Assembly (NCBI RefSeq): GCF_024713975.1
Contig: NC_091096.1
Location: forward strand, 25,135,458-25,199,457
Length of the DNA stretch: 64,000 nucleotides
Source: Paralichthys olivaceus
Lineage: Eukaryota > Chordata > Actinopteri > Pleuronectiformes > Paralichthyidae
Direction of reading: 5' to 3'
The position numbers and the translations under genes were made by a program. The notes under the pieces are model-generated. The model made no database searches, had not been told where the DNA came from, and saw only the letters and a list, made by a program, of their open reading frames with translations. Positions 16,427-58,098 of this stretch are shown here, in pieces. Position 1 is the first letter of the stretch. Each line of letters opens with the position of its first letter.

Positions 16427-17553
16427 CCCCAGAGGAAAGCTTTTGGCAAAGTACAGTAGACAGTATCCTCTTGGCATCACTACAATGAGTTCTAGCCAAG
16501 TGACAACCCACCATGACATCACCTGTTTTGGCCATATCCATATTTGGAGCCTGACTAAGAGTTGGAGGACACGGCACACACTACCACCTGCCCCAGTCTG
16601 ATAGAGCCCAAATGAAGTGGCTTCTCTCCCCTCTGTTCCAGCCACCTCTCCACTCTCCTCAACAGGTCGAGGCAGATGGCCGCCCAGATGTGTTTGGTTC
16701 TGTTGGCAGCTTCATCCAGTTTTTTTCTCTCCACATTCGCCAATCCGGGAACTGTTGGGTTTCTCTATAATATAATATGATATATAATATAATAATAACA
16801 TAGACTTGATGCATCAAGGAGACCAGAAGGTGAAACAATATCCAAACACTAACAGAGTAACATGAGCAACTGTCACCCCCAAGTCTGAAGATGTCTCCCA
16901 TATATCTTCCTCTACTTGTGTCACCCAGCACATCCATGAGTGGATAGAATTGCTGTCACTCTCTATGTTACATGTAGATGTTTGTATCCTATTGGATAGT
17001 TAAGGCTAAATATGCATTCCTAAATCACATTGTGTCTTTATGTCTTGCCACTAGTGTCTCTGTCTGGCACATCTGAATTAGATATGAAAGTCCCTAAGCA
17101 TAGACAATACTAAACCTGACCTTGGGTACTGCTTGGAGAGAGAAGGGAGTATCTGTGGAATGAGACAGCCACTACTTCCTGTACAGATATAGTGTGATAT
17201 ACACTATATACATAATGTATAGTGGCATATACAGTAATGTGTGAGGTTGAGCAAAAATTCCTCAATGGTCTCGATTTTAAAATCTCATAAAGTCCCTTGA
17301 AATCATGTATGTTGGGATTTGGCGCTACGCAAATAAAATTTAACTGAAGAGATTTAATATTTCTTACACTGCAGGTCCACATTGCAGTGCTGCACACACA
17401 TAATGAATACAACAATCTCATGGGGAAATAGCAGGAGAACATGATGACCAGCCTGCACAACAACATCCAAACCCTTTAGGATGACCAGGAATGCTGGGTG
17501 GGAGCAAATCCCTGAAGAAAAAACCGCAAGTACAGGAAGTCCATCCATAGTTT

Positions 17554-17559
17554 TTTATT
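17554..17559 (-). terminator. Poly(A) signal of chemokine copy 1
   Basis: AATAAA on the minus strand about 160 bases after the stop codon. Two ATTTA motifs lie in the 3' UTR (17564-17568 and 17596-17600), as is usual for unstable cytokine mRNAs. Equivalent sequence follows each of the other copies. Confidence 0.6.
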
Positions 17560-17715
17560 ATTGTAAATATATGTACAGATTATTTACATTGTATATAAAT
17601 ATATGTGTGAAGACAAGTTGAGAACATGATCTGATGATCAGCCACAGAGAACATTTGAACACTTAATAATAACCTGACAAAGGTAAGCTTCTATGACAAC
17701 AGTGGTTCAGTGCCA

Positions 17716-18569
17716 TTACATGGCGGCTGGTGCAGAGTCTGTGATGCGGCTGCTTGTTGAGTTCAAGGAATTTGTTTGACTGGAGCTCGTCGTCATGATC
17801 ACTCGTCTCTTGTTCTCCTGCCTGAATCAACAAATGACACTGTTAGTTAAAAAGCGATTTGAATGTGAAGCAGCCACAGTGTTGTGTGAGACCCCTTCCC
17901 TGCAACAAGACTGTGTCATGTTGTCAGATGTTTCTACAGTCGAGCTGGACTTACTTTTTTTTGTTCATCAGAATTAATTTTCCAAGTTGTGACAGTGGAT
18001 CCACGCATTTCTCCTCTTCTTTAATGGTGCTGTGAGAGAAACATGTCATGTTAAAGAAACCCTGGTGAATGGCACGTGAATGTGAAGTCATTCAGGTCAT
18101 CTACTCACATAATAATCTCCGTTTGATCGCAGAAGCTGTTTGGTGGGTTTATGACTGGCTCTGACTTGATATGCCGCACGAAGTGTTTGGTGACCTGGCC
18201 GATATAACCGTTTAAGCACTTGCATTTTCTGGATCTGCTGTCCGGCATTCCTGTGGGAAGAGGAGACAGGCATTTAGGACTAGGTTAAAGGTCAGCTCAC
18301 CAGACTGTACTGAAGCCTGATAACACCAATAAATGGCATTCTGCAATTCTAGGATAGAGCGAATGATATTGCCTATTTTGTTTCCGGAATTTCTCCACAG
18401 CTTTAAAGATAAAAAGATATTTTCTTGTATGCGTAATGATATAATTGGCAAAGTGTCATAAACAGATTTTGGTTTTCTGTGAATAAAATGACATTTTCTG
18501 ATTTAGTACAGTACCTTGAGCACAGAGGACAAGCAGGCAGCTGAGGAAGGTAATAGTGGATGAGTTCAT
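17716..18569 (-). CDS. CXC chemokine, CXCL9/10/11-like, copy 1 (type A)
   Basis: Secreted chemotactic cytokine, predicted CXCR3-type ligand. Exons on the minus strand: 18515-18569, 18109-18250, 17955-18029 and 17716-17821 (TAA), all AG/GT, phases 1/2/2, giving 125 residues. Exon 1 is a hydrophobic signal peptide (MNSSTITFLSCLLVLCAQ). Exon 2 starts GMPDSRSRKCKCLNGY: the CXC motif is CKC with no ELR before it, resembling the start of CXCL10. Third cysteine is in NSFCDQTEII, fourth in KEEEKCVDPLSQLGKLIL, the CXCL11-like pattern. Four exons with these phases are standard for CXC genes. The tail is basic (QENKRR), then Ser/Thr-rich, ending DSAPAAM. Copy-specific: Glu after TIK, Leu in DPLSQ, and Ser-Ser before Arg in the tail. 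Fish genes of this kind are named cxcl11.x; exact orthology is not established. Confidence 0.92.
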
Positions 18570-18749
18570 GGTTGTGGCTGTAGTCAGGTTCTGGCTCTCC
18601 CTGTAGTGTCTCTCTTCAGTCTGGACTCCTGGTGATAAACAGCACAGAAAGTGTCATCCTTTTATACGCAGGGAATCCAGGGCATGAGTAGCAGCACTTT
18701 CATTTTCACTGTCCCTTCCCTTTTCTTCAAGTAATACTTTTTCCCGGAA
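18570..18749 (-). promoter_or_regulatory. Promoter of copy 1: TATA, ISRE, GAS
   Basis: Minus strand, going upstream from the ATG: TATAAAA (18660-18666), ISRE core GAAAATGAAA (18698-18707) and GAS palindrome TTCCCGGAA (18741-18749). GGGAATCC at about 18671-18678 is a weak NF-kB-like half. ISRE plus GAS is the layout expected of an interferon-induced CXCL9/10/11-type gene. Confidence 0.7.
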
Positions 18750-21700
18750 TCAGAAAGCTCTTCTCTAGAAAGTTTGTTTCAGTGTATCATTGTGTTAAAA
18801 TCTGCACACAAAGCTATTCTGCGGTGGGGGCGTGACCAGTCAGAAACAATATGTATATGTAAAATGAATGAATGATCTACTTTTCCTGATAATTGTTAAA
18901 GATGGATGAAAATGTAAAAACAAGCAAACAAACGAGCAGGGACAAAAAACTTTCCCAAAAAACCATTGCCTGACTGGGGTATGTAACACATGCAGGCTAT
19001 ACATCACTCCTCTATATATTTTCTGATTTGGTTGCAAAAAGACATACATGTTGCTATTTTTAATGTATATTCCAATCTATCAGACTAGAAAAATGATTAC
19101 ATTTGAGCTCATCTAGTGACATAGATGAAAAGTTAGCTACAACCCAGGTTGGAATCAGTGAGGGGCACTGCAGGTAAATAAACCCACGTCCTCAAGATAA
19201 ATTGATTTGTCCAAATGAGGCTTAAAGGTCTCCAGACTCATGAGCAGCTGTGTGAGGCTGTTCCTTTAGTGTTTGAGCTAAATGCTAAGAACCATTGCAA
19301 AAAAGCATTAAATAAGAGGCAAAACTTAAGCTGATGGTAATGTCACCAGATTTTTTAAAGAGTTTAAACAAAAGTAACACAAGTTAGCAAGTAAAAAAGT
19401 TATATAAAAAAATACAGTAATATCAAACTGTTTACTCCTCCATTAAAGACATGGAAAAGCATCAGATTATGAAGAACTAATCACATCATGAGGAAGCTAG
19501 AATCCTAAACCTAAAGGAGAAATTAGAAAACATAGATTCACATACTCAATAAATGAACACAAAATAGGTTTCATGTGGGATACTCTTGTCAAAGTAAATT
19601 CTTACTGTTTGTAAAAACACTGCTCCAACAGAAGATTTACCGAACCTGGAGTTCAAATTGAAAATATTCCTTTTTGAGAAAGGTCAGAGATGTGAGCTAC
19701 TGCAGCAGAGTTGGGTTGAGCACGCCACATAGATGATGATGACCATTAGCATTCATGATATGGTGAAAGTCATTAGCTGTGTCTCAATTCACAGACTACA
19801 TCCTTCAGAGGCTGCATTTGAAAACCGATTGCTTCACAGCAACGTGACCAGGCTGTCCAGTTTCAAAAGGCTTCTTCAAATGTCTGATCTAACCTTTCCC
19901 AAGAGCCACTGCGCTTCAGTGATAAACCCTATTTTAAAGAGGCTATGGTACCAATCCAATGCTTAAGTGTCGGGCTTCAACTTAAAGGTTCAGTGTGTAG
20001 AATTTTGTGATATCTAGTGTTGAAGTTGCATGTTGCAGCTGAACACCCCTCACCTCACGCTCTCCTTCCAAACATGAAAAAGAACCTGTGGTAGCTTCAG
20101 TTGTCATAAAAACTCAAAAAGTGTTTAGTTTGTTCAGTCTGGACTAATGTAAAAAACATGGCGGCCTCCATAGAGAGAGTCCCCTCCATGTAAATATAAG
20201 GTATTTAAATATAAAGGACTTTTTATGGGGTCAAGAAAACTACAATTCATACAATTTAGATGAAACGAACTAGTGAAAACATCATGAGGATTATTCTACA
20301 TTACATTTCTGCCAATAGTTCCCTTTCACCTAAATCCTACACACTGGACCATTAACCAAACAGCTAACCATACACATGTGTATAAAACAAAGCGTAAACC
20401 TAAAACTTTGTAGTGTCCAACCATTATTCTTGTTTCAAGTCAACAGTTTTTTTATTTCAGTTCGGCCTTCCCAGTCTACACAGTCCACAAAGCAGGTGGC
20501 CTTCGTAGGCCCCAGAGGAAAGCTTTTGGCAAAGTACAGTAGACAGTATCCTCTTGGCATCACTACAATGAGTTCTAGCCAATTGACAACCCACCATGAC
20601 ATCACCTGTTTTGGCCATATCCATATTTGGAGCCTGACTAAGAGCTCGAGGACACAGCACACACTACCACCTGCCCCACTCTGATAGAGCCCAAATGAAG
20701 TGGCTTCTCTCCCCTCTGTTCCACCCACCTCTCCACTCTCCTCAACAGGTTGAGGCAGATGGCCGCCCAGATGTGTTTGGTTCTGTTGGCAGCTTCATCC
20801 AGTTTTTTTCTCTCCACAGTCGCTAATCCGGGAACTGTTGGGTTTCTCTATAATATTGTACGGTGTCTGTTATGGAAGTTTTCTGGGGGCTGGTGAAAGC
20901 AGAACTCAGACAGCAGCTGATGTCTGATGCAGAAGATTTTAACATAGACTTGATGCATCAAGGAGACCAGAAGGTGAAACAATATCCAAACACTAACAGA
21001 GTAACATGAGCAACTGTCACCCCCAAGTCTGAAGATGTCTCCCATATATCTTCCTCTACTTGTGTCACCCAGCACATCCATGAGTGGATAGAATTGCTGT
21101 CACTCTCTATGTTACATGTAGATGTTTGTATCCTATTGGATAGTTAAATCTAAATATGCATTCCTAAGTCACATTGTGTCCTTATGTCTTGCCACTAGTG
21201 TCTCTGTCTGGCACATCTGAATTAGATATGAAAGTCCCTAAGCATAGACAATACTAAACCTGACCTTGGGTACTGCTTGGAGAGAGAAGGGAGTATCTGT
21301 GGAATGAGACAGCCACTACTTCCTGTACAGCTATAGTGTGATATACACTATATACATAATGTACAGTGGCAAATACAGTAATGTGTGAGGTTGAGCAAAA
21401 ATTCCTCAATGGTCTCTATCTTAAAATCTTGTAAAGTCCCTTGAAATCATGTATGTTGGGATTTGGCGCTACGCAAATAAAATTTAATTGAAGAGATTTA
21501 ATATTTCTTACACTGCAGGTCCACATTGCAGTGCTGCACACACATAATGAATACAACAATCTCATGGGGAAATAGCAGGAGAACATGATGACCAGCCTGC
21601 ACAACAACATCCAAACCCTTTAGGATGACCAGGAATGCTGGGTGGGAGCAAATCCCTGAAGAAAAAACCGCAAGTGCAGGAAGTCCATCCATAGTTTTTT

Positions 21701-21861
21701 ATTATTGTAAATATATGTACAGATTATTTACATTGTATATAAATATATATGTGTGAAGACAAGTTGAGAACATGATCCGATGATCAGCCACAGAGAACAT
21801 TTGAACACTTAATAATAACCTGACAAAGGTAAGCTTCTATGACAACAGTGGTTCAGTGCCA

Positions 21862-22717
21862 TTACATGGCGGCTGGTGCAGAGTCTGTGATGCGGCCGCT
21901 TGTTGAGTTCAAGGTATTTGTTTGACTGGAGCTCGTCGTCATGATCACACGTCTCTTGTTCTCCTGCCTGAATCAACAAATGACACTGTTAGTTAAAAAG
22001 CAATTTGAATGTGAAGCAGCCACAGTGTTGTGTGAGACCCCTTCCCTGCAACAAGACCGTGTCATGTTGTCAGATGTTTCTACAGTCGAGCTGGACTTAC
22101 TTTTTTTTGTTCATCAGAAACAATTTTCCAAGTTGTGACATTGGATCCACGCATTTCTCCTCATCTTTAATGGTGCTGTGAGAGAAACACGAGTCATGTT
22201 AAAGAAACCCTGGTGAATGGCACGTGAATGTGAAGTCATTCAGGTCATCTACTCACATAATAATCTCCGTTTGATCGCAGAAGCTGTTTGGTGGGTTTAT
22301 GACTGGCTCTGACTTGATATGCCGCACGAAGTGTTTGGTGACCTGGCCGATATAACCGTTTAAGCACTTGCATTTTCTGGATCTGCTGTCCGGCATTCCT
22401 GTGGGAAGAGGAGACAGGCATTTAGGACTAGGTTAAAGGTCAGCTCACCAGACTGTACTGAAGCCTGATAACACCAATAAATGGCATTCTGCAATTCTAG
22501 GATAGAGCGAATGATATTGCCTATTTTGTTTCCGGAATTTCTCCACAGCTTTAAAGATAAAAAGATATTTTCTTGTATGCGTAATGATATAATTGGCAAA
22601 GTGTCATAAACAGATTTTCGTTTCCTGTGAATAAAATGACATTTTCTGATTTAGTACAGTACCTTGAGCACAGAGGACAAGCAGGCAGCTGAGGAAGGTA
22701 ATAGTGGATGAGTTCAT
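21862..22717 (-). CDS. CXC chemokine, CXCL9/10/11-like, copy 2 (type A)
   Basis: Exons 22663-22717, 22257-22398, 22101-22175 and 21862-21967 (TAA); 125 residues, all splice borders intact. Exon 2 reads as type A (KHFVRHIKSEP, then INPPNSFCDQTE). Copy-specific residues: Asp after TIK, Met in DPMSQ, and Phe in GKLFL, the predicted start of the C-terminal helix, where most copies have Ile. The tail has Thr-Leu and Ser-Gly-Arg in place of the Ser-Leu and Ser-Ser-Arg of copy 1. Same strand and spacing as its neighbours. Confidence 0.92.
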
Positions 22718-22897
22718 GGTTGTGGCTGTAGTCAGGTTCTGGCTCTCCCTGTAGTGTCTCTCTTCAGTCTGGACTCCTGGTGATAAACAGCACAGAAAGT
22801 GTCATCCTTTTATACGCAGGGAATCCAGGGCATGAGTAGCAGCACTTTCATTTTCACTGTCCCTTCCCTTTTCTTCAAGTAATATTTTTTCCCGGAA
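22718..22897 (-). promoter_or_regulatory. Promoter of copy 2: TATA, ISRE, GAS
   Basis: TATAAAA 22808-22814, ISRE core GAAAATGAAA 22846-22855 and GAS TTCCCGGAA 22889-22897. All three intact. Confidence 0.7.
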
Positions 22898-24724: not shown

Positions 24725-25154
24725 CTAGTGTGGTGTCTGAAATGCTATGTGTAGTCCTCCCCATAAAAGAAACGTATATGTGGCTTTTAGGTTCACCGGT
24801 CCTGAGGAATTTGGAGTAAGCCTGAATAAATAGTAGGGTGTTAGGACACACTTCAAAGGGGAACACTAAAATTTGAGATAGTATCTCTCTTCCCGTTACT
24901 GGATAACTGGGAAGAGCTGGATAAGTAACTAGATGTGTTTTAATTAGGTTTACGCAAACCCTCCTATATAAACGAGGAGATGAAGTTGCTTCGAGAGAAG
25001 ATTCACATTGGCCCCGAATCTCTCTCCAGGCAGATTGCTTTGCTTGTACTGATGCTGAACTTTTTGTAATAAACCTTTATATACAATCAAGACGGTGTCA
25101 TCGGAGATTCCTTCATCATCCTCACATCATCGCAACCCCAATATACGACACTAG
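24725..25154. mobile_element. Solo LTR of an LTR retroelement (unit 3)
   Basis: A 422-bp insertion (24729-25150), starting TG and ending CA, flanked by the 4-bp duplication CTAG (24725-24728 and 25151-25154). Units without it have a single CTAG here. It contains a TATATAAA box and a late AATAAA, as an LTR should. No internal coding region remains, so it is a fossil left by LTR-LTR recombination. Family (gypsy- or ERV-like) not resolved. Confidence 0.85.
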
Positions 25155-26437: not shown

Positions 26438-27251
26438 TTACATGGCGGCTGGTGCAGAGTCTGTGATGCGGCCGCTTGTTGAGTTCAAGGTATTTGTTTG
26501 ACTGGAGCTCGTCGTCATGATCACACGTCTCTTGTTCTCCTGCCTGAATCAACAAATGACACTGTTAGTTAAAAAGCAATTTGAATGTGAAGTAGCCACA
26601 GTGTTGTGTGAGACCCCTTCCCTGCAACAAGACTGTGTCATGTTGTCAGATGTTTCTACAGTCGAGCTGGACTTACTTTTTTTTGTTCATCAGAATTAAT
26701 TTTCCAAGTTGTGACATTGGATCCACACATTTCTCCTCATCTTTAATGGTGCTGTGAGAGAAGAACGAGTCATGTTAAAGAAACCCTGGTGAATGGCACG
26801 TGAATGTGAAGTCATTCAGGTCATCTACTCACATAATAATCTCCATTTGATTGCAGAAGCTGTTTTTTTGGTGTATGACTGGCTCTGACTTGATATGCTG
26901 CCTGATGAACGGTTTGGTGACCTGGCCGATATAACCGTTTAGGCACTTGCATTTTCTGGATCTGCTGTCCGGCATTCCTGTGGGAAGAGGAGACAGGCAT
27001 TTAGGACTAGGTTAAAGGTCAGCTCACCAGACTGTACTGAAGCCTGATAACACCAATAAATGGCATTCTGCAATTCTAGGATAGAGCGAATGATATTGCC
27101 TATTTTGTTTCCGGAATTCCGGATTATTGGCAAAGTGTCATAAACAGATTTTCATTTTCTGTGAATAAAATGACATTTTCTGATTAAGTACAGTACCTTG
27201 AGCACAGAGGACAAGCAGGCAGCTGAGGAAGGTAATAGTGGATGAGTTCAT
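26438..27251 (-). CDS. CXC chemokine, CXCL9/10/11-like, copy 3 (type B)
   Basis: Exons 27197-27251, 26833-26977, 26677-26751 and 26438-26543 (TAA). Exon 2 is 145 nt, one codon longer than type A, giving 126 residues in frame. Type B changes lie between the second and third cysteines: KPFIRQHIKSEP and IHQKNSFC replace KHFVRHIKSEP and INPPNSFC. After the third cysteine this copy has Asn-Gln-Met where type A has Asp-Gln-Thr. Exon 3 has Asp after TIK and Met in DPMSQ; the tail has Thr-Leu and Ser-Gly-Arg. Borders intact. Because changes cluster in the N-loop/30s-loop region, receptor preference may differ from type A; this is inference. Confidence 0.92.
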
Positions 27252-27431
27252 GGTTGTGGCTGTAGTCAGGTTCTGGCTCTCCCTGTAGTGTCTCTCTTCA
27301 GTCTGGACTCCTGGTGATAAACAGCACAGAAAGTGTCATCCTTTTATACGCAGGGAATCCAGGGCATGAGTAACAGCACTTTCATTTTCACTGTCCCTTC
27401 CCTTTTCTTCAAGTAATACTATTTCCCGAAA
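27252..27431 (-). promoter_or_regulatory. Promoter of copy 3: TATA and ISRE kept, GAS altered
   Basis: TATAAAA 27342-27348 and ISRE core 27380-27389. The GAS position (27423-27431, + strand) reads TTCCCGAAA, one substitution that breaks the TTCNNNGAA palindrome. Confidence 0.65.
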
Positions 27432-30400: not shown

Positions 30401-30475
30401 GCCACAGAGAACATTTGAACACTTAATAATAACCTGACAAAGGTAAGCTTCTATGACAACAGTGTTTCAGTGCCA

Positions 30476-31330
30476 TTACATGGCGGCTGGTGCAGAGTCT
30501 GTGATGCGGCCGCTTGTTGAGTTCAAGGTATTTGTTTGACTGGAGCTCGTCGTCATGATCACACGTCTCTTGTTCTCCTGCCTGAATCAACAAATGACGC
30601 TGTTAGTTAAAAAGCGATTCGAATGTGAAGCAGCCACAGTGTTGTGTGAGACCCCTTCCCTGCAACAAGACTGTGTCATGTTGTCAGATGTTTCTACAGT
30701 CGAGCTGGACTTACTTTTTTTTGTTCATCAGAATTAATTTTCCAAGTTGTGACATTGGATCCACGCATTTCTCCTCCTCTTTAATGGTGCTGTGAGAGAA
30801 GAACGAGTCATGTTAAAGAAACCCTGGTGAATGGCACGTGAATGTGAAGTCATTCAGGTCATCTACTCACATAATAATCTCCGTTTGATCGCAGAAGCTG
30901 TTTGGTGGGTTTATGACTGGCTCTGACTTGATATGCCGCACGAAGTGTTTGGTGACCTGGCCGATATAACCGTTTAAGCACTTGCATTTTCTGGATCTGC
31001 TGTCCGGCATTCCTGTGGGAAGAGGAGACAGGCATTTAGGACTAGGTTAAAGGTCAGCTCACCAGACTGTACTGAAGCCTGATAACACCAATAAATGGCA
31101 TTCTGCAATTCTAGGATAGAGCGAATGATATTGCCTATTTTGTTTCCGGAATTTCTCCACAGCTTAGAAGATAAAATATATTTTCTTGTATGCGTAGTGA
31201 TATAATTGGCCAAGTGTCATAAACAGATTTTCGTTTTCTGTGAATAAAATTACATTTTCTGATTCAGTACAGTACCTTGAGCACAGAGGACAAGCAGGCA
31301 GCTGAGGAAGGTAATAGTGGATGAGTTCAT
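30476..31330 (-). CDS. CXC chemokine, CXCL9/10/11-like, copy 4 (type A)
   Basis: Exons 31276-31330, 30871-31012, 30715-30789 and 30476-30581 (TAA); 125 residues with intact borders. Exon 2 matches type A. Exon 3 combines Glu after TIK (otherwise only in copy 1) with Met in DPMSQ. The tail has Thr-Leu and Ser-Gly-Arg as in copies 2, 3 and 5. This mix of copy-1 and copy-2 markers within one gene suggests exchange between units. Confidence 0.92.
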
Positions 31331-31510: not shown

Positions 31511-34500
31511 TCAGAAAGCTCTTCTCTAGAAAGTTTGGTTCAGTGAATCATTGTGTTAAAATCTGCACACAAAGCTATTCTGCGGTGGGGGCGTGACCAG
31601 TCAGAAACAATATGTATATGTAAAAATGAATGAATGATCTACTTTTCCTGATAATTGTTAAAGATTAATGAAAATGTAAAAACAAGCAAACAAACGAGCA
31701 GGGACGAAAACTTTCCAAAAAAAACCATTGCCTGACTGGGGTATGTAACACATGCAGGCTATACATCACTCCTCTATATATTTTCTGATTTGGTTGCAAA
31801 AAGACATAGATGTTGCTATTTTTAATGTATATTCCAATCTATCAGACTAGAAAAATGATTACATTTGAGCTCATCTAGTGACATACGTGAGAAGTTAGCT
31901 ACAACCCAGGTTGGAATCAGTGAGGGGCACTGCAGGTAAATAAACCCACGTCCTCAAGATAAATTGATTTGTCCAAATGAGGCTTAAAGGTCTCCAGACT
32001 CATGAGCAGCTGTGTGAGGCTGTTCCTTTAGTGTTTGAGCTAAATGCTAAGAACCATTGCAAAAAAGCATTAAATAAGAGGTCAAACTTAAGCTGATGGT
32101 AATGTCACCAGATTTTTTAAAGAGTTTAAACAAAAGTAACACAAGTTAGCAAGTAAAAAGTTATATAAAAAAATACAGTAATATAAAACTGTTTACTCCT
32201 CCATTAAAGACATGGAAAAGCATCAGATTATGAAGAACTAATCACATCATGAGGAAGCTAGAATCCTGAACCTAAAGGAGAAATTAGAAAACATAGATTC
32301 ACATACTCAATAAATGAACACAAAATAGGTTTCATGTGGGATACTCTTGTCAAAGTAAATTCTTACTGTTTGTAAAAACACTGCTCCAACAGAAGATTTA
32401 CCGAACCTTGAGTTCAAATTGAAAATATTCCTTTTTGAGAAAGGTCAGAGATGTGAGCTACTGCAGCAGAGTTGGGTTGAGCACGCCACATAGGTGATGA
32501 TGACCATTAGCATTCATGATATGGTGAAAGTCATTAGCTGTGTCTCAATTCACAGACTACATCCTTCAGAGGCTGCATTTGAAAACCGATTGCATCACAG
32601 CAACGTGACCAGGCTGTCCAGTTTCAAAAGGCTTCTTCAAATGTCTGACCTAACCTTTCCCAAGAGCCACTGCGCTTCAGTGATAAACCCTATTTTAAAG
32701 AGGCTATGGTACCAATCCAATGCTTAAGTGTGAGGCTTCAACTTAAAGGTTCAGTGTGTAGAATTTTGTGATATCTAGTGTTGAAGTTGCATGTTGCAGC
32801 TGAACACCCCTCACCTCACCCTCTCCTTCTAAACATGGAAAAGAACCTGTGGTAGCTTCAGTTGTCATAAAAACTCAAAAGGTGTTTAGTTTGTCCAGTC
32901 TGGACTAACTTAAAAAACATGGCGGCCTCCGTAGAGAGGGTCCCCTCCATGTACATATAAAGTATTTAAATATAAAGGACCTTTTCTGGGGTAAAGAAAA
33001 CTACAATTCATACAATTTAGATGAAATGAACTAGTGAAAACATCATGAGGATTATTCTACATTACATTTCTGCCAATAGATCCCTTTCACCTAAATCCTA
33101 CACACTGGACCATTAACCAAACAGCTAACCATACACATGTGTATAAAACAAAGCGTAAACCTAAAACTTTGTAGTGTCCAACCATTATTCTAGTTTCTAG
33201 GTAACAGTTTTTTTATTTCAGTTCGGCCTTCCCAGTCTACACGGTCCACAAAGCAGGTGGCCTTTGTAGGCCCCAGAGGAAAGCTTTTGGCAAAGTACAG
33301 TAGACAGTATCCTCTTGGCATCACTACAATGAGTTCTAGCCAAGTGACAACCCACCATGACATCACCTGTTTTGGCCATATCCATATTTGGAGCCTGACT
33401 AAGAGTTGGAGGACACGGCACACACTACCACCTGCCCCAGTCTGATAGAGCCCAAATGAAGTGGCTTCTCTCCCCTCTGTTCCACCCACCTCTCCACTCT
33501 CCTCAACAGGTTGAGGCAGATGGCCGCCCAGATGTGTTTGGTTCTGTTGGCGGCTTCATCCAGTTTTTTTCTCTCCACAGTCGCCAATCCGGGAACTGTT
33601 GGGTTTCTCTATAATATTGTCAGGGTTCTGTTATGGAAGTTTCCTGGAGGCTGGTGAAAGCAGAACTCAGACAGCAGCTGATGTCTGATGCAGAAGATTT
33701 TAACATAGACTTGATGCATCAAGGAGACCAGAAGGTGAAACAATATCCAAACACTAACAGAGTAACATGAGCAACTGTCACCCCCAAGTCTGAAGATGTC
33801 TCCCATATATCTTCCTCTACTTGTGTCACCCAGCACATCCATGAGTGGATAGAATTGCTGTCACTCTCTATGTTACATGTAGATGTTTGCATCCTATTGG
33901 ATAGTTAAGTCTAAATATGCACTCCTAAATCACATTGTGTCCTTATGTCTTGCCACTAGTGTCTCTGTCTGGCACATCTGAATTAGATATGAAAGTCCCT
34001 AAGCATAGACAATACTAAACCTGACCTTGGGTACTGCTTGGAGAGAGAAGGGAGTATCTGTGGAATGAGACAGCCACTACTTCCTGTACAGCTATAGTGT
34101 GATATACACTATATACATAATGTATAGTGGCAAATACAGTAATGTGTGAGGTTGAGCAAAAATTCCTCAATGGTCTCGATTTTAAAATCTCATAAAGTCC
34201 CTTGAAATCATGTATGTTGGGATTTGGCGCTACGCAAATAAAATCTAACTGAAGAGATTTAATATTTCTTACACTGCAGGTCCACATTGCAGTGCTGCAC
34301 ACACATAATGAATACAACAATCTCATGGGGAAATAGCAGGAGAACATGATGACCAGCCTGCAAAACAACATCCAAACCCTTTAGGATGACCAGGAATGCT
34401 GGGTGGGAGCAAATCCCTGAAGAAAAACAGCAAGTGCAGGAAGTCCATCCATAGTTTTTTATTATTGTAAATATATGTACAGATTATTTACATTGTATAT

Positions 34501-34621: not shown

Positions 34622-35477
34622 TTACATGGCGGCTGGTGCAGAGTCTGTGATGCGGCCGCTTGTTGAGTTCAAGGTATTTGTTTGACTGGAGCTCGTCGTC
34701 ATGATCACACGTCTCTTGTTCTCCTGCCTGAATCAACAAATGACACTGTTAGTTAAAAAGCGATTCGAATGTGAAGCAGCCACAGTGTTGTGTGAGACCC
34801 CTTCCCTGCAACAAGACTGTGTCATGTTGTCAGATGTTTCTACAGTCGAGCTGGACTTACTTTTTTTTGTTCATCAGAATTAATTTTCCAAGTTGTGACA
34901 TTGGATCCACGCATTTCTCCTCATCTTTAATGGTGCTGTGAGAGAAGAACGAGTCATGTTAAAGAAACCCTGGTGAATGGCATGTGAATGTGAAGTCATT
35001 CAGGTCATCTACTCACATAATAATCTCCGTTTGATCGCAGAAGCTGTTTGGTGGGTTTATGACTGGCTCTGACTTGATATGCCGCACGAAGTGTTTGGTG
35101 ACCTGGCCGATATAACCGTTTAAGCACTTGCATTTTCTGGATCTGCTGTCCGGCATTCCTGTGGGAAGAGGAGACAGGCATTTAGGACTAGGTTAAAGGT
35201 CAGCTCACCAGACTGTACTGAAGCCTGATAACACCAATAAATGGCATTCTGCAATTCTAGGATAGAGCGAATGATATTGCCTATTTTGTTTCCGGAATTT
35301 CTCCACAGCTTTAAAGATAAAAAGATATTTTCTTGTATGCGTAATGATATAATTGGCAAAGTGTCATAAACAGATTTTCGTTTTCTGTGAATAAAATGAC
35401 ATTTTCTGATTTAGTACAGTACCTTGAGCACAGAGGACAAGCAGGCAGCTGAGGAAGGTAATAGTGGATGAGTTCAT
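34622..35477 (-). CDS. CXC chemokine, CXCL9/10/11-like, copy 5 (type A)
   Basis: Exons 35423-35477, 35017-35158, 34861-34935 and 34622-34727 (TAA); 125 residues, splice borders intact. Type A exon 2. Exon 3 has Asp after TIK, Met in DPMSQ and Ile in GKLIL; the tail has Thr-Leu and Ser-Gly-Arg. It therefore differs from copy 2 at the helix residue (Ile for Phe) and from copy 4 at the residue after TIK (Asp for Glu). Confidence 0.92.
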
Positions 35478-38763: not shown

Positions 38764-39619
38764 TTACATGGCGGCTGGTGCAGAGTCTGTGATGCGGCTG
38801 CTTGTTGAGTTCAAGGAATTTGTTTGACTGGAGCTCGTCGTCATGATCACTCGTCTCTTGTTCTCCTGCCTGAATCAACAAATGACACTGTTAGTTAAAA
38901 AGCAATTTGAATGTGAAGCAGCCACAGTGTTGTGTGAGACCCCTTCCCTGCAACAAGACTGTGTCATGTTGTCAGATGTTTCTACAGTCGAGCTGGACTT
39001 ACTTTTTTTTGTTCATCAGAATTAATTTTCCAAGTTGTGACAGTGGATCCACGCATTTCTCCTCATCTTTAATGGTGCTGTGAGAGAAACACGAGTCATG
39101 TTAAAGAAACCCTGGTGAATGGCACGTGAATGTGAAGTCATTCAGGTCATCTACTCACATAATAATCTCCGTTTGATCGCAGAAGCTGTTTGGTGGGTTT
39201 ATGACTGGCTCTGACTTGATATGCCGCACGAAGTGTTTGGTGACCTGGCCGATATAACCGTTTAAGCACTTGCATTTTCTGGATCTGCTGTCCGGCATTC
39301 CTGTGGGAAGAGGAGACAGGCATTTAGGACTAGGTTAAAGGTCAGCTCACCAGACTGTACTGAAGCCTGATAACACCAATAAATGGCATTATGCAATTCT
39401 AGGATAGAGCGAATGATATTGCCTATTTTGTTTCTGGAATTTCTCCACAGCTTTAAAGATAAAAATATATTTTCTTGTATGCGTAATGATATTATTGGCA
39501 AAGTGTCATAAACAGATTTTCGTTTTCTGTGAATAAAATTACATTTTCTGATTTAGTACAGTACCTTGAGCACAGAGGACAAGCAGGCAGCTGAGGAAGG
39601 TAATAGTGGATGAGTTCAT
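38764..39619 (-). CDS. CXC chemokine, CXCL9/10/11-like, copy 6 (type A)
   Basis: Exons 39565-39619, 39159-39300, 39003-39077 and 38764-38869 (TAA); 125 residues, borders intact. Type A exon 2. Exon 3 has Asp after TIK and Leu in DPLSQ. Exon 4 matches copy 1, including the synonymous ACTCGTCTC variant and Ser-Ser-Arg, so its 3' end groups with unit 1 although five units separate them. Confidence 0.92.
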
Positions 39620-42911: not shown

Positions 42912-43725
42912 TTACATGGCGGCTGGTGCAGAGTCTGTGATGCGGCCGCTTGTTGAGTTCAAGGAATTTGTTTGACTGGAGCTCGTCGTCATGATCACAC
43001 GTCTCTTGTTCTCCTGCCTGAATCAACAAATGACACTGTTAGTTAAAAAGCAATTTGAATGTGAAGCAGCCACAGTGTTGTGTGAGACCCCTTCCCTGCA
43101 ACAAGACTGTGTCATGTTGTCAGATGTTTCTACAGTCGAGCTGGACTTACTTTTTTTTGTTCATCAGAATTAATTTTCCAAGTTGTGACAGTGGATCCAC
43201 GCATTTCTCCTCATCTTTAATGGTGCTGTGAGAGAAGAACGAGCCATGTTAAAGAAACCCTGGTGAATGGCAGGTGAATGTGAAGTCATTCAGGTCATCT
43301 ACTCACATAATAATCTCCATTTGATCGCAGAAGCTGTTTTTTTGGTGTATGACTGGCTCTGACTTGATATGCTGCCTGATGAACTGTTTGGTGACCTGGC
43401 CGATATAACCGTTTAGGCACTTGCATTTTCTGGATCTGCTGTCCGGCATTCCTGTGGGAAGAGGAGACAGGCATTTAGGACTAGGTTAAAGGTCAGCTCA
43501 CCAGACTGTACTGAAGCCTGATAACACCAATAAATGGCATTCTGCAATTCTAGGATAGAGCGAATGATATTGCCTATTTTGTTTCCGGAATTCCGGATTA
43601 TTGGCCAAGTGTCTTAAACAGATTTTCGTTTTCGGTGAATAAAATGACATTTTCTGATTTAGTACAGTACCTTGAGCACAGAGGACAAGCAGGCAGCTGA
43701 GGAAGGTAATAGTGGATGAGTTCAT
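42912..43725 (-). CDS. CXC chemokine, CXCL9/10/11-like, copy 7 (type B)
   Basis: Exons 43671-43725, 43307-43451 (145 nt), 43151-43225 and 42912-43017 (TAA); 126 residues, borders intact. Type B exon 2 with a private Gln in KQFIRQHIKSEP (Pro in copies 3 and 9), and Asp-Gln-Met after the third cysteine. Exon 3 has Asp after TIK and Leu in DPLSQ; the tail has Ser-Leu and Ser-Gly-Arg. Reading exon 1 into its intron gives a longer open frame down to 43498, which is not the real protein. Confidence 0.92.
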
Positions 43726-46900: not shown

Positions 46901-46952
46901 TAATAATAACCTGACAAAGGTTAGCTTCTATGACAACAGTGGTTCAGTGCCA

Positions 46953-47808
46953 TTACATGGCGGCTGGTGCAGAGTCTGTGATGCGGCCGCCTGTTGAGTT
47001 CAAGGTATTTGTTTGACTGGAGCTCGTCGTCATGATCACACGTCTCTTGTTCTCCTGCCTGAATCAACAAATGACGCTGTTAGTTAAAAAGCAATTCGAA
47101 TGTGAAGCAGCCACAGTGTTGTGTGAGACCCCTTCCCTGCAACAAGACCGTGTCATGTTGTCAGATGTTTCTACAGTCGAGCTGGACTTACTTTTTTTTG
47201 TTCATCAGAATTAATTTTCCAAGTTGTGACAGTGGATCCACGCATTTCTCCTCATCTTTAATGGTGCTGTGAGAGAAACACGAGTCATGTTAAAGAAACC
47301 CTGGTGAATGGCACGTGAATGTGAAGTCATTCAGGTCATCTACTCACATAATAATCTCCGTTTGATCGCAGAAGCTGTTTGGTGGGTTTATGACTGGCTC
47401 TGACTTAATATGCCGCACGAAGTGTTTGGTGACCTGGCCGATATAACCGTTTAAGCACTTGCATTTTCTGGATCTGCTGTCCGGCATTCCTGTGGGAAGA
47501 GGAGACATGCATTTAGGACTAGGTTAAAGGTCAGCTCACCAGACTGTACTGAAGCCTGATAACACCAATAAATGGCATTCTGCAATTCTAGGATAGAGCG
47601 AATGATATTGCCTATTTTGTTTCCGGAATTTCTCCACAGCTTTAAAGATAAAAATATATTTTCTTGTCTGCGTAATGATATAATTGGCAAAGTGTCATAA
47701 ACAGATTTTCGTTTCCTGTGAATAAAATGACATTTTCTGATTTAGTACAGTACCTTGAGCACAGAGGACAAGCAGGCAGCTGAGGAAGGTAATAGTGGAT
47801 GAGTTCAT
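46953..47808 (-). CDS. CXC chemokine, CXCL9/10/11-like, copy 8 (type A)
   Basis: Exons 47754-47808, 47348-47489, 47192-47266 and 46953-47058 (TAA); 125 residues, borders intact. Type A exon 2 with one synonymous change (ATT for ATC in HIKSEP). Exon 3 has Asp after TIK and Leu in DPLSQ. The tail has Thr-Leu and a private Gly-Gly-Arg. Confidence 0.92.
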
Positions 47809-47988
47809 GGTTGTGGCTGTAGTCAGGTTCTGGCTCTCCCTGTAGTGTCTCTCTTCAGTCTGGACTCCTGGTGATAAACAGCACAGAAAGTGTCATCCTT
47901 TTATACGCAGGGAATCCAGGGCATGAGTAGCAGCACTTTCACTTTCACTGTCCCTTCCCTTTTCTTCAAGTAATACTTTTTCCCGGAA
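47809..47988 (-). promoter_or_regulatory. Promoter of copy 8: TATA, GAAAGTGAAA ISRE, GAS
   Basis: TATAAAA 47899-47905, ISRE core GAAAGTGAAA 47937-47946 (same variant as copy 4) and GAS TTCCCGGAA 47980-47988. Confidence 0.7.
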
Positions 47989-49814: not shown

Positions 49815-50244
49815 CTAGTGTGGTGTCTGAAATGCTATGTGTAGTCCTCCCCATAAAAGAAACGTATATGTGGGTTTTAGGTTCACCGGTCCTGAGGAAT
49901 TTGGAGTAAGCCTGAATAAATAGTAGGGTGTTAGGACACACTTCAAAGGGGAACACTAAAATTTGAGATAGTATCTCTCTTCCCGTTACTGGATAACTGG
50001 GAAGAGCTGGATAAGTAACTAGATGTGTTTTAATTAGGTTTACGCAAACCCTCCTATATAAATGAGGAGATGAAGTTGCTTCGAGAGAAGATTCACATTG
50101 GCCCCGAATCTCTCTCCAGGCAGATTGCTTTGCTTGTACTGATGCTGAACTTTTTGTAATAAACCTTTATATACAATCAAGACGGTGTCATCGGAGATTC
50201 CTTCATCATCCTCACATCATCGCAACCCCAATATACGACACTAG
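49815..50244. mobile_element. Solo LTR of an LTR retroelement (unit 9)
   Basis: 422 bp (49819-50240), same ends, same site and same CTAG duplication (49815-49818 and 50241-50244) as the LTR in unit 3; by eye the two copies differ at about two positions. No internal region, so it is a fossil. It was copied along with its unit rather than inserted twice. Confidence 0.85.
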
Positions 50245-51527: not shown

Positions 51528-52341
51528 TTACATGGCGGCTGGTGCAGAGTCTGTGATGTGGCCGCTTGTTGAGTTCAAGGAATTTGTTTGACTGGAGCTC
51601 GTCGTCATGATCACACGTCTCTTGTTCTCCTGCCTGAATCAACAAATGACACTGTTAGTTAAAAAGCAATTCGATTGTGAAGCAGCCACAGTGTTGTGTG
51701 AGACCCCTTCCCTGCAACAAGACTGTGTCATGTTGTCAGATGTTTCTACAGTCGAGCTGGACTTACTTTTTTTTGTTCATCAGAAAAATTTTTCCAAGTT
51801 GTGACAGTGGATCCACGCATTTCTCCTCATCTTTAATGGTGCTGTGAGAGAAGAACGAGTCATGTTAAAGAAACCCTGGTGAATGGCACGTGAATGTGAA
51901 GTCATTCAGGTCATCTACTCACATAATAATCTCCATTTGATCGCAGAAGCTGTTTTTTTGGTGTATGACTGGCTCTGACTTGATATGCTGCCTGATGAAC
52001 GGTTTGGTGACCTGGCCGATATAACCGTTTAGACACTTGCATTTTCTGGATCTGCTGTCCGGCATTCCTGTGGGAAGAGGAGACAGGCATTTAGGACTAG
52101 GTTAAAGGTCAGCTCACCAGACTGTACTGAAGCCTGATAACACCAATAAATGGCATTCTGCAATTCTAGGATAGAGCGAATGATATTGCCTATTTTGTTT
52201 CCGGAATTCCGGATTATTGGCCAAGTGTCATAAACAGATTTTCGTTTTCTGTGAATAAAATGACATTTTCTGATTTAGTACAGTACCTTGAGCACAGAGG
52301 ACAAGCAGGCAGCTGAGGAAGGTAATAGTGGATGAGTTCAT
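51528..52341 (-). CDS. CXC chemokine, CXCL9/10/11-like, copy 9 (type B)
   Basis: Exons 52287-52341, 51923-52067 (145 nt), 51767-51841 and 51528-51633 (TAA); 126 residues, borders intact. Type B exon 2 (KPFIRQHIKSEP, IHQKNSFCDQME). Exon 3 has Asp after TIK, Leu in DPLSQ, and a private Ile-Phe pair in GKIFL. The tail has Ser-Leu and a private His where other copies have Arg (Ser-Gly-His). It is the most divergent copy at the protein level. Confidence 0.92.
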
Positions 52342-52521
52342 GGTTGTGGCTGTAGTCAGGTTCTGGCTCTCCCTGTAGTGTCTCTCTTCAGTCTGGACTC
52401 CTGGTGATAAACAGCACAGAAAGTGTCATCCTTTTATACGCAGGGAATCCAGGGCATGAGTAACAGCACTTTCATTTTCACTGTCCCTTCCCTTTTCTTC
52501 AAGTAATACTTTTTCCCATAA
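52342..52521 (-). promoter_or_regulatory. Promoter of copy 9: TATA and ISRE kept, GAS lost
   Basis: TATAAAA 52432-52438 and ISRE core GAAAATGAAA 52470-52479. The GAS position (52513-52521, + strand) reads TTCCCATAA, so the palindrome is gone. The change differs from that in copy 3. Confidence 0.65.
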
Positions 52522-54281
52522 TCAGAAAGCTCTTCTCTAGAAAGTTTGGTTCAGTGAATCATTGTGTTAAAATCCGCACACAAAGCTATTCTGCGGTGGG
52601 GGCGTGACCAGTCAGAATCAATATGTATATGTAAAATGAATGAATGATCTACTTTTCCTGATAATTGTTAAAGATGAATGAAAATGTAAAAACAAGCAAA
52701 CAAACGAGCAGGAACTTTCCAAAAAAAAACATTGCCTGACTGGGGTATGTAACACATGCAGGCTATACATCACTCCTCTATATATTTTCTGATTTGGTTG
52801 CAAAAAGACATACATGCTGCTATTTTTAATTTATATTCCAATCTATCATAATAGAAAAATGATTACATTTGAGCTCATCTAGTGACATAGATGAGAAGTT
52901 AGCTACTACCCAGGTTGGAATCAGTGAGGGGCACTGCAGGTAAATAAACCCACGTCCTCAAGATAAATTGATTTGTCCAAATGAGGCTTAAAGGTCTCCA
53001 GACTCATGAGCAGCTGTGTGAGGCTGTTCCTTTAGTGTTTGAGCTAAATGCTAAGAATCATTGCAAAAAAGCATTAAATAAGAGGTCAAACTTAAGCTGA
53101 TGGTAATGTCACCAGATTTTTTAAAGAGTTTAAACAAAAGTAACACAAGTTAGCAAGTAAAAAAGTTATATAAAAAAATACACTAATATAAAACTGTTTA
53201 CTCCTCCATTAAAGACATGGAAAAGCATCAGATTATGAAGAACTAATCACATCATGAGGAAGCTAGAATCCTAAACCTAAAGGAGAAATTAGAAAACATA
53301 GATTCACATACTCAATAAATGAACACAAAATAGGTTTCATGTGGGATACTCTTGTCAAAGTAAATTCTTACTGTTTGTAAAAACACTGCTCCAACAGAAG
53401 ATTTACCGAACCTGGAGTTCAAATTGAAAATATTCCTTTTTGAGAAAGGTCAGAGATGTGAGCTACTGCAGCAGAGTTGGGTTGAGCACGCCACATAGGT
53501 GATGATGACCATTAGCATTCATGATATGGTGAAAGTCATTAGCTGTGTCTCAATTCACAGACTACATCCTTCAGAGGCTGCATTTGAAAACCGATTGCAT
53601 CACAGCAGCGTGACCAGGCTGTCCAGTTTCAAGAGGCTTCTTCAAATGTCTGACCTAACCTTTCCCAAGAGCCACTGCGCTTCAGTGATAAACCCTATTT
53701 TAAAGAGGTTATGGTACCAGTCCAATGTGTCAGGCTTCAACTTAAAGGTACAGTGTGTAGAATTTTGTGATATCTAGTGTTGAAGTGTCTTGTTGACTCA
53801 AAAGGTGTTTAGTTTGTCCAGTCTGGACTAATGTAAAAAAAACATGGCGGCTTCCATAGAGTGGGTCCCCTTGATGTAAATATAAAGTATTTAAATATAA
53901 AGGACCTTTTCTGGGGTAAAGAAAACTACAATTCTGACAATTTAGATGAAACGTATGGAAGCCTGTTTCCGTCACAAAAAAAAAAAAAATCATTATTATG
54001 AGATTAAAAGTCATAATTATGAGATAAGAAGTCATAATTATGAGATAAAAAGCCATAATTATGAGATAAGAAGTCGAAAATATCAGGTAGGAAGTGCGCA
54101 TGCGCTGCAGGAGCTGTCTTCAGAGGTGCCTTCATCATTATCACTGCCAGAGCTAAACATGAATAAGTTAGCGAATGTTACATTGAATTGTGAAGTATTT
54201 TAATCAGTCCGAAATTGGTAAAATTATGACATACTTTCTCAGAACAGATTAGTAGCAGCTTTTAAACAATTTGACACGGTA

Positions 54282-54960
54282 ATGGATTGTGAGTACATTA
54301 AGGACTACTTTAAATGTGGCTTTAACACGGATGAAATACTTAATTTGCTTGCTGAATTACATGGGAATGTACTAAGCAAACACATCCTTGAAAGGATTTT
54401 AAGCAAGAAACAGCTCTGGCGGAGAAATAATAAAACTGATGTGGCTGAGGTGGCTGAGGAGGCAACTTTCATTGAACAGCAACTAGAAACATCTGGTCGG
54501 TGTCATGGTGACCGATGGATGCACCAAAAATGTTGGTTACATGGAATCGTGACTGACAGAGAAACAACAGCTATTGGATAGTAAAGGTGTTGGTCTGAGG
54601 TCAAGAAACAGACTGCGAAGACGTGTTTACCACAGCTGTGGTACAAACTATGTATGGCACATCGATGACTACGACAAGCTTAAGCCATTTGGAATTGCAA
54701 TCAGCGGATGCATTGATGGTATTCCAGAAAGATGATATGACTTGAAGCCTAGAAAACAAACAGTGACCCAAAGATCACCACTGGCTATTTCCAAGCACTG
54801 GAAACCAGCGAATTGAACAATGCTGGCTGATCTTGCAAAGTGAGTGTGTCCAGTTTTGGATAGACCTATTTGACAAACTGAGAGAAGATGGCTACTTCTC
54901 AGACAACTTCTTGGACAAGTCCTTTATCCAGTTTTTTTTCTTCAAACAATACAGGTACAG
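54282..54960 (+). pseudogene. Integrase-core transposase remnant (IS3EU-like)
   Basis: The first frame (54282-54581, 99 residues) starts MDCEYIKDYFKCGFNTDEIL, a helix-turn-helix-like N terminus, with RWMHQKCW near its end. Downstream frames give RRRVYHSCGTNYVWHIDDYD and KLKPFGIAISGCIDG, the start of a DDE integrase core. Then follow CVQFWIDLFDKLREDGYFSD and FLDKSFIQFFF, the C-terminal part. The middle of the catalytic core, about 100 residues in relatives I recall, is missing, and in-frame stops and frame changes occur. It cannot make an active transposase. Confidence 0.75.
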
Positions 54961-55459
54961 TAGTACACACATTATGAGATAAAGAAATGATCATGTGTAA
55001 AAAATAATTGGCTGTGTTTGTGCAGAGAAAGATTCATAATTAAGTTATGGTTTTTGGTTTGAAAAAATAATGTGGGTTGTGGTATTCCAAGTAGCTCTGC
55101 ATCAAACAAGTAGGCATCATTTAAGAATGTACCAGTGTAATGAATAGCATGGCATAATAGCGTAACAGCCCCTTTACATTCAAGGTTCCTCCACTTCATA
55201 TTGGTAGCTGTGAGAATAAAACATTCATTGCACTGCTGTAAATTACGTTTTGCAGGTATTCAAATTAGTGTTCCAACCCACTATGTTATGATCAAAACAA
55301 ATCTCACAGTCAGGACTACTTGACTTAGACAGTAGTCTAAGGCATAATTGACAATTTGTTTCTCCTTGGCATTCTGGGTAGTAGGGTAAGTAATTGATCT
55401 CATGATCTTGGCTGTAGTTCTTCATAGACTGCTGCAATCCCTTTCAGCTATGATCTAAC

Positions 55460-56236
55460 AGGTTCAAGCATGTTGCTCCACTGTTCAATGACAAAAGCAG
55501 GCTCTTGAATCAGTTTTTGGTGAGCAAGCTCCCTCAAGTTTTGCTCAATCACAGTTGTGGATATCCATGATTTCCAACAATTCCTCTTGGTCAACACATT
55601 CAAAATCTGAACAACAAGATTCAAAGGTCACACGCTCAGACTCAGAGACATACTTGAGAAAGTTGTCCACAAGATCACTCTCCACACAGCCCAAAACAGC
55701 TTGCTCCAGAAGTGCGGGTGCAATTTTTATAGGAAGGTACTTCTCCTTCTGCCAGTCAAATGTAACGATTCGGCCTACACTTTCCCATTCTTGTTTATCA
55801 AAATCGTGACGTAGGTATGGCACTTTGCATTTCCCATGGTGCACTGCTCATAAAAGTCATTCCAAAATTCTGACAGTACATTCCTCAAAACGCCTCCATC
55901 ATCCACAGCCTTTTCAAGCTTTCCATCTGGAAGAATAACTTGAAAATTCAAGTCATACTCCATGATACTTTGCTCAGAAAACACTTGAATAAGTTCTCTA
56001 AGAATCTGACCAAGATGAAGAACAATCATTTTCTTGACTCTCTCTCTTTGACTGACTTGTTCCTGCAACATATCCATGGAAGGAGGCAAGAGTGATTCCA
56101 TGGACAGTTCCAGAGAGAGAGGCAAGGTATCATCAAGACTGGAGGACTCCATCCCAGAGAGGCTTTCTGTGTGAAAAGTCACAATTCCACTATCCTCTAA
56201 TGCACTAACATGAAATAACGTTTCATGTTCTGGCAA
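55460..56236 (-). pseudogene. HECT-like (G2E3-type) ORF carried by the transposon
   Basis: Two overlapping minus-strand frames (55775-56236, 153 residues; 55545-55844, 99 residues) carry the start of a HECT-type E3 ligase domain. The first has KAVDDGGVLRNVLSEFWNDF; the second has KVPYLRHDFDKQEW, LPIKIAPALLEQAVLGCVES and CVDQEELLEIMD. This resembles fish proteins annotated as G2/M-phase-specific E3 ubiquitin ligase-like. Weak coding similarity continues to about 55460 (FVIEQW-like). A frameshift separates the two frames and the catalytic-cysteine end is not evident, so it looks inactive. It is convergent with the transposase remnant. Confidence 0.7.
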
Positions 56237-56519
56237 ATTAGTTGCATCAGTTATGTTGACTGTGGTGTATAGAAGGGTTACACTTTCACTGCTTGCATTT
56301 GCAAATACTGTGCTGCTTCCAACAAAAACAACATCTGAGTACTTATCCTCTCAGCGTCTGTTGCAAAAGTGTCTGTAGAGTGGCAATAGATATCAGGTCT
56401 GTCATGTGTCATTCTTGTGCAGTTGCAATACACTGGTATTGTCTCTTTTCTTGGTTGTTAAATAGAAACGTAAAAGAGGTAATTTTGTCTTTTCATATAG
56501 AGTAATGTCTCCATCCCTG

Positions 56520-57560
56520 TTGAATAAAATTGAAGCTTAAATATACCTAAACAAATTTAAAATGTGTACAAAATCATTTTTCTTCACAGCCAATGTCATG
56601 TTTAAATAAGACAAAACCTCTTACTATGCTCTAAATTATTCACCTTAGAAGGAAGGTAGCATTACTACCTTTTGTTATCTTTTATATTTCTTTTAAAATA
56701 AAGTTCTTGGATTTCAAATTTTCTATAGCTGGCCTATGATATTATGACAAATTCACACTCTGAACCCCAGGGGCTTTTGGACCACTTTTGGTCCCCCTGG
56801 ATTTATATGCTATAAAGCTTGTATAACATCAGCCCTGTAATGCACAGTCAGGTTATAACAAAGTTTTTTTTCAGGACAACCTGGGCTCTAAGAATATTTG
56901 TGCTGCAGTGTCATAAACTGAAAAACATAAAACATGTGTTACATTATCCGTAGACTTTTCTACATACTGTATGTGTTCATACATGTATGCTAGTGTTGTA
57001 AGGCTGGCATAGCGCCTTTCAGGAATAGGGCGGTGCGTGAGTTGTGTGTGCATAAGGTATGAGTTGGCGGGTGAAAGAGAGAGCGTGCATTCATGTGAAC
57101 GGTGAATGCATGCGAGAGGAAGGAAAGCGAAGGAGGTAACAGTAGTAGCAACATAAATTAATGTACAGTACAGCCTGCAGCTTTGCTGTGAAGTAAAGGC
57201 GACGGCTCCTCAAGATACAGCAAAGCTCCCTGGTATTATTTCCCTGGTATTATTTCCCGACATAACATGTGAAAGGGGGTTCACCCCGAAGGCAAACATA
57301 AACTTCTGCCCTGGAGGAAATCATCTCCCATGTGCTTCCCGACCATGGTCCGGGAGCCGAGCAGGAATGGTGTAACAGTAGGATGACTATAGGTTGATTT
57401 TATAGGTGTGATAACACTTACCAACTCTTGAGTAAAGAGCTATGTGGAGGCTGATGTTTCCGCCTTTGAGTAACATTCAGCAACTTGCCGCAGATGCACC
57501 GACACTGTTTTCAATATTGGCGTGAACGTTAGCCTGCTACACAACTTAATACACAGTTAA
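56520..57560. other. Non-coding interior of the IS3EU-like transposon
   Basis: No recognisable coding sequence; open frames are short. Lies between the HECT-like ORF and the right inverted end. Confidence 0.5.
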
Positions 57561-58098
57561 GAGATATTGTCATCGGTGGACTGATTAAAATACTTCATAT
57601 TTCAATGTAACAATAACAAAAGTCCCCTAGGCTCTAATAGTTCGCTAACTTATTCATGTTTAGCTCTGGCAGTGATGGCGATAATGATGAAGGCAGTGCG
57701 CTCCTGCAGCGCATGCACAATTCCTATCTCATAATTTTGACTTTTTATCTCATAATTATGACTTACCACTGGGATATTTTAGTGACAGAAACGGGCTTCC
57801 ATAGAAACAAACTAGTGAAAACATCATGAGGATTATTCTACATTACATTTCTGCCAATAGTTCTCTTTCACCTAAATCTTACACACTGGACCTTTAACCA
57901 AAAGCTAATCATACACATGTGAATAAAACAAGGGGCGCTAAAACCTTGTAGTGTCCAACCATTATTGTTGTTTCTAGGTAACAGTTTACATTTCAGTTCG
58001 GCCTTCCCGGTCTACACGGTCCACAAAGCAGGTGGCCTTTGTGGGCTGGGTTGACCACGTCCTCCAAAGGATGCAGCTCCTGAATTAAGACATAGCTG

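Follow-up and report, generated by a model that had tools for sequence, protein, structure and literature searches.

We identified a tandem array of nine CXCL11/CXCL10-like chemokine genes in the flounder Paralichthys olivaceus, in a stretch of 64,000 nucleotides of contig NC_091096.1 (assembly GCF_024713975.1, positions 25,135,458 to 25,199,457 of the forward strand), which is referred to below as the window and whose first base is position 1. The array (16427..58046, no strand assigned) was delimited by self-comparison, a repeat finder and a unit-start motif. Its genes fall into two classes that differ in exon 2, class A (units 1, 2, 4, 5, 6 and 8) and class B (units 3, 7 and 9), which follow one another in the order A A B A A A B A B. 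The two forms of exon 2 probably persist by doing somewhat different work.

The unit-start motif occurs nine times, at 16427, 20510, 24660, 29170, 33271, 37418, 41561, 45661 and 49750, with spacings of 4083, 4150, 4510, 4101, 4147, 4143, 4100 and 4089 bp. Self-BLAST of the window gave long matches at ~97-98% identity, the repeat finder returned nine copies, all in register, and pairwise identity among units 1-8 ranged from 97.30 to 98.58%. All eight internal junctions lie at one common point with the same 15-mer to the left of each (one base is different at 33271), while the sequence bordering the array on the left and that past its right edge resemble neither this 15-mer nor each other, which points to one founding tandem junction followed by unequal exchange. 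Unit 9 is broken at 53954-57803 by an insertion and continues at 57804-58046. An earlier sequence-only reading of this DNA had called nine direct units in tandem with the right edge at this position, and both calls proved correct. Identity to unit 1 is as low as 89-90% in the outer pieces of unit 9 (53800-53953 and 57804-58046), compared with 97-98% within the array; less exchange at the edges would be expected to produce such a drop.

Among the nine units, 198 of 3450 gap-free columns are variable, in about equal proportion in coding (24/378) and other (174/3072) sequence. Units of ~4 kb at ~98% identity are hard to assemble, and the array could in principle be an artefact in which the assembler multiplied or rearranged a smaller number of real units or joined two haplotypes. 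This is very unlikely given the nine distinct coding sequences, the private and shared indels and insertions, the single edge on either side of the array and an amount of variation that we judged to be much for allelic differences or read error.

Each unit contains one gene on the minus strand with four coding exons of 55, 142 (class A) or 145 (class B), 75 and 106 bp; four exons are usual for CXC chemokine genes. From start to stop codon, the class A genes occupy 17716..18569 (gene 1, encoding 125 amino acids; exons 18515-18569, 18109-18250, 17955-18029 and 17716-17821), 21862..22717 (gene 2), 30476..31330 (gene 4), 34622..35477 (gene 5), 38764..39619 (gene 6) and 46953..47808 (gene 8). The class B genes, each encoding 126 amino acids, occupy 26438..27251 (gene 3, exon 2 at 26833-26977), 42912..43725 (gene 7, exon 2 at 43307-43451) and 51528..52341 (gene 9, exon 2 at 51923-52067). 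Reading frames are open in 9/9 genes (125 or 126 amino acids) and introns are bounded by GT..AG in 27/27 cases, so that the genes are intact four-exon CXC chemokine genes, as had been claimed, and the possibility that any is a pseudogene is ruled out. The nine coding sequences are distinct and all nine proteins differ. An eight-A run at the coding end of exon 3 (17955-17962 in unit 1) has the same length in all nine copies.

Cysteines C28, C30, C59 and C74 (unit 1 numbering) are invariant in 9/9 proteins, giving each the C-X-C motif and four cysteines. Judged by eye, a signal peptide is present, and the products would thus be small secreted proteins. Pfam IL8 (PF00048) matched 9/9 proteins with E 0.1 or better; the curated threshold is 21.3 bits, which unit 1 (22.1) exceeded and unit 3 (18.6) did not reach. 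The ELR motif is absent before the first cysteine, where all nine proteins have SRSRKC. When units 1 and 9 were searched against solved structures, unit 1 matched CXCL11 best (8.9e-07) and then CXCL10, and unit 9 matched CXCL10 best (8.1e-06) and then CXCL11; these PDB chains are the basis for placing the genes close to CXCL9-11. In alignment to human CXCL11, the segment from the second to the third cysteine has four gaps in unit 1 and five in unit 9. A search of the array flanks for additional chemokine exons gave nothing better than E 2.3 among the matches listed, which cover the queries u1-u5 and u6 in part. NCBIfam, a prokaryote library, matched 0/9 proteins, and of 20 stretches in viral contigs that fitted a search pattern none was confirmed as a relative.

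The copies had been described in the sequence-only reading as near-identical; that description missed the two exon 2 classes and the fact that the nine genes encode nine different proteins. Over 95 bp of exon 2, the A/B island (18121..18215 in unit 1 coordinates, minus strand) contains nine fixed substitutions together with one additional in-frame codon in class B. Class B also has a 45-bp deletion in intron 1. Only 14 gap-free sites separate units 3, 7 and 9 exactly from the others; nine of them are in exon 2, three at the gap edges in intron 1 and two elsewhere. The two classes diverge by 7.4% in exon 2, compared with 0.35% in the 141 bp of intron 1 next to it; raw values elsewhere include 0 in exon 1, 1.6% in exon 4 and 1.8% in intron 3. 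After subtraction of within-class variation, net divergence is 6.6% in exon 2 and no more than 1.2% in ten other regions, the distal 74 bp of intron 1 having 1.2%. The fixed differences, the distinct proteins and the exon 2 divergence together rule out a single near-identical kind of copy.

From A to B, the encoded protein changes at H41 (to P or Q) and V43 (to I), gains one Q, replaces N-P-P by H-Q-K 3-5 residues before the NSF of the third cysteine and replaces T by M after NSF. At codon 41, all class A genes have CAC, whereas unit 7 has CAG and the other two class B units have CCG. By alignment with CXCL11, these changes fall in the N-loop and the 30s-loop, the presumed receptor contacts of these proteins; both loops touch the receptor in chemokines.

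Another split of the units gave a larger cluster of fixed differences (12 columns) than any other, and its net divergence (9.2%) exceeded that of every other window and split, including the 6.6% for units 3, 7 and 9 in exon 2. It separates units 1, 4 and 8 and was set aside as a real class, as it marks the edge of a 61-bp indel that distinguishes these three units from the rest and that, in our judgement, looks misaligned. This complex indel lies downstream of the gene in a TATAA-rich stretch (16774-16795 in unit 1 coordinates).

Exchange between units, proposed previously, was supported by two approaches. At least 35 recombination intervals (Rmin) are needed to explain the variation among units, and a permutation test of the pairwise homoplasy index (PHI) type gave 0/2000 for all sites in three window sizes (100, 200 and 400). 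In the same order of window sizes, the test gave 0, 4 and 0 of 2000 after removal of the edge of the indel in units 1, 4 and 8, and 5, 67 and 13 of 2000 after the further removal of exon 2 and intron 1. Neighbouring sites are more compatible than permuted ones, in support of sequence exchange between units. Phylogenetic trees grouped units 3, 7 and 9 with support of 100% in exon 2, 94% in intron 1 and 63% upstream; in downstream trees the three were scattered, yet their joint grouping was not rejected (approximately unbiased test, 0.128). The exon 2 island stands whether or not the class B units are one lineage throughout.

Two of the class B units have an additional feature in common. An insert of 422 bp that resembles a solo long terminal repeat (LTR) is present near the start of unit 3 (24729..25150, no strand assigned), with TG..CA ends and CTAG on both sides, and the same insert occupies the same place in unit 9 (49819..50240, likewise without strand). 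Since the two copies have the same CTAG flanks and are identical in 420/422 bases, units 3 and 9 have a common source at this position; unit 7 is without the insert. No library match to the insert was found, and the designation LTR-like comes from its ends alone.

These observations are probably best explained by the following model. Interferon, acting through ISRE/STAT, would switch the units on together, and each unit would produce a secreted ELR-negative CXC chemokine that attracts CXCR3-bearing leukocytes; CXCL11 and CXCL10 bind CXCR3. The array would have grown from its founding junction via unequal exchange, and continued exchange would keep most of each unit alike, while two putatively receptor-facing forms of exon 2 would persist, alternating along the array. 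The A and B forms would do somewhat different work, in the choice of receptor subtype, glycosaminoglycan (GAG) binding or decoy escape, and exchange that erases the difference would for this reason be selected against. The array has a peak of divergence of the corresponding kind, with one exon high and the adjoining intron low in copies that exchange sequence. We consider this peak a better sign of selection than the intactness of the genes, because a review, taking exon 5 of the opsins as its example, treats such a peak as a sign that differences have been maintained in the face of gene conversion (PMC3924837), and islands of divergence are said to be a possible indication of selection for new functions (PMC3728101).

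Several observations weigh against selection for two functions. Single conversion tracts were nominally significant in 13/36 pairs of units and in 0/36 after correction (global value 0.068), and the whole unit may share the single-lineage history of units 3, 7 and 9. Raw divergence between classes is also high in exon 3 (3.1%) and the distal 74 bp of intron 1 (5.0%), where within-class variation is equally large. In exon 2, pN/pS between A and B is 0.59, so that amino acid changes are not in excess over silent ones. For the GRO chemokines of mammals, positive selection has been reported chiefly in the GAG-binding rather than the receptor-binding part, and gene conversion was not found (PMC5627130). 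The edges of the exon 2 island are sharp, as from one imported conversion tract, which suits a neutral alternative in which the array grew recently, the B form of exon 2 was imported once by conversion from a divergent CXC paralog elsewhere, or originated a single time, before unequal exchange spread it to three units, and all nine genes are open merely because too little time has passed. The ordinary amount of variation among B copies of exon 2 (nucleotide diversity, pi, 1.4%) and the insert shared by units 3 and 9, by which B copies multiply with their surroundings, also agree with this alternative, and neither the substitution counts given below nor intactness rejects drift. It accounts less well for the near uniformity of exon 2 in class A (pi 0.23%) next to an exon 3 that is not uniform (2.5%), for the location of the changes in presumed receptor-contact loops and for the three states of codon 41, which would fit stepwise change in place. 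We regard neutral spread as possible, if somewhat unlikely, and prefer the interpretation that the two forms are kept by different work.

On the basis of our own counts of ~26 substitutions in coding sequence and 14 indels of frameshift size outside it, and with 3.8% of random changes producing a stop, some 2.6 disabling changes should have arisen in unconstrained genes; none was seen (P 0.078). Hand counts of nonsynonymous to synonymous changes (N:S) were 17:8, 16:8 and 9:6, depending on the handling of doubtful codons (P 0.13, 0.11 and 0.07), and pN/pS was 0.61 within class A, 0.78 within class B and 0.70 between classes. These values suggest coding constraint. The sequence-only reading had argued from nine open genes that gene dose or variety is useful; the genes are indeed all open, but intactness is weak evidence for selection at this P value, and N:S does not differ from neutral at 0.05. 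Human CCL3L/CCL4L are copy-number-variable chemokine genes in which dose varies; the sequence-only reading had suggested that copy number could also vary in the present array.

A more specific proposal is that exon 2 serves as a specificity cassette, with two receptor-facing versions of one interferon-induced chemokine, in six A and three B copies under one promoter type, held apart by selection while exchange homogenises the rest. Each form would suit a CXCR3 paralog of its own or resist a pathogen decoy of its own. We offer it as a speculative and rather improbable extension. Teleosts have several CXCR3 genes (PMC4348563; PMC3568907, Table 2), and in 2015 it was stated that how Cxcl11 forms pair with Cxcr3 receptors had yet to be described (PMC4348563).

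The control region is similar throughout the array. In gene 1, promoter motifs span 18661..18749 on the minus strand and include TATAAA from 18666 (-97), an interferon-stimulated response element (ISRE; GAAAATGAAA) from 18707 (-138) and a gamma-activated site (GAS; TTCCGGGAA) from 18749 (-180). The ISRE GAAANNGAAA at -138, TATAAA at -97 and AATAAA are each present in 9/9 units, as the sequence-only reading had noted for ISRE and TATA. The GAS consensus TTCNNNGAA at -180 is found in 7/9 units, units 3 and 9 each having lost it by a change of its own. A further match, at -217, is likewise found in 7/9 units, the exceptions being units 1 and 6, and every unit has at least one GAS. Of the class B units, 3 and 9 are thus without the -180 match, 7 keeps it, and all three keep the match at -217. 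The ISRE, GAS and TATA assignments are consensus matches taken without a chance control, and they suggest that the genes, previously labelled interferon-type, may be induced by interferon. Variation is lowest in the 180 columns at 18505-18684 (unit 1 coordinates), which cover exon 1, the 5' untranslated region and TATA and contain one variable column, compared with a mean of 10.3. The longest invariant run is 132 columns, a length equalled in 6.3% of permutations.

Small cxcl11-like clusters are known in fish, as the sequence-only reading had stated. The zebrafish cluster on chromosome 5 (cxcl11aa, ac-ah) comprises seven tandem genes (PMC4348563), and Table 1 of PMC3568907 gives eight genes for the zebrafish CXCL11 group, in which it lists no gene for medaka, stickleback and Tetraodon. 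Within this cluster, af and ag differ by 2 bp in cDNA, and recombinant aa and af both recruit macrophages, an effect that depends on Cxcr3.2 (PMC4348563). The flounder array resembles the zebrafish cluster in consisting of tandem CXCL11-like genes; however, it has nine units of one layout with two interspersed exon 2 forms. The new part is the presence of these two forms in an array that is otherwise kept alike, tandem cxcl11 genes being already known. Human red/green opsins offer a parallel in that tandem genes are kept alike by exchange except in exon 5, which carries the functional difference (PMC3924837). For opsins, function and selection are argued from data, whereas the array, with nine immune-ligand genes, shows the pattern only. 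Rainbow trout CXCL11_L1 (gamma-IP; PMC4690017) and Atlantic salmon CXCL9-11 (PMC11410577) are likewise CXCL9-11 relatives and are interferon-induced in those species. In the text available from these two papers there is no mention of a near-identical array, and the words tandem, copies and paralog are absent from the main text of PMC11410577. No description of the flounder array was found in the open-licence literature among the matches listed, as represented by titles and abstract openings, which is not proof that it is unpublished; the accessible parts of PMC5600903, PMC7409096 and PMC13403563 contain nothing on this locus.

The insertion that splits the upstream part of unit 9 (53954..57803, no strand assigned) is a transposon-like element of 3.85 kb with inverted ends, 27 nt at 89% identity at the extremities and longer arms further in. 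Its inner reading frames are broken; one of them matched an integrase core (PF24764, E 0.0045, below the Pfam cut-off), and the minus strand may carry a HECT-like frame. The element may be related to IS3EU elements of fish. On the left side of the array, a TOP3B coding piece (663..905, plus strand) was identified by Pfam PF23546 and PDB 9cah (E 2.4e-39), and coding pieces of a PP2C phosphatase (7894..12336, plus strand) by PF00481. The neighbours named in the sequence-only reading, top3b and ppm1f, thus agree with the first of these genes and, at the level of the PP2C family only, with the second, a putative ppm1f. A stretch between PP2C coding pieces (8444-8817) is 94% identical, in opposite orientation, to 19982-20355, a 375-bp part of the upstream flank of unit 1, the only unit with which it was compared; the common stretch is probably a dispersed element.

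With nine natural variants, two clean classes and few differing positions, the array would allow a direct test of dose versus variety, and its variants would also allow a test of the part that the N-loop and 30s-loop play in determining which receptor is chosen. As the consistent differences between A and B lie mainly in the stretch expected to touch the receptor, this family may be a good place to ask why gene copies are kept.

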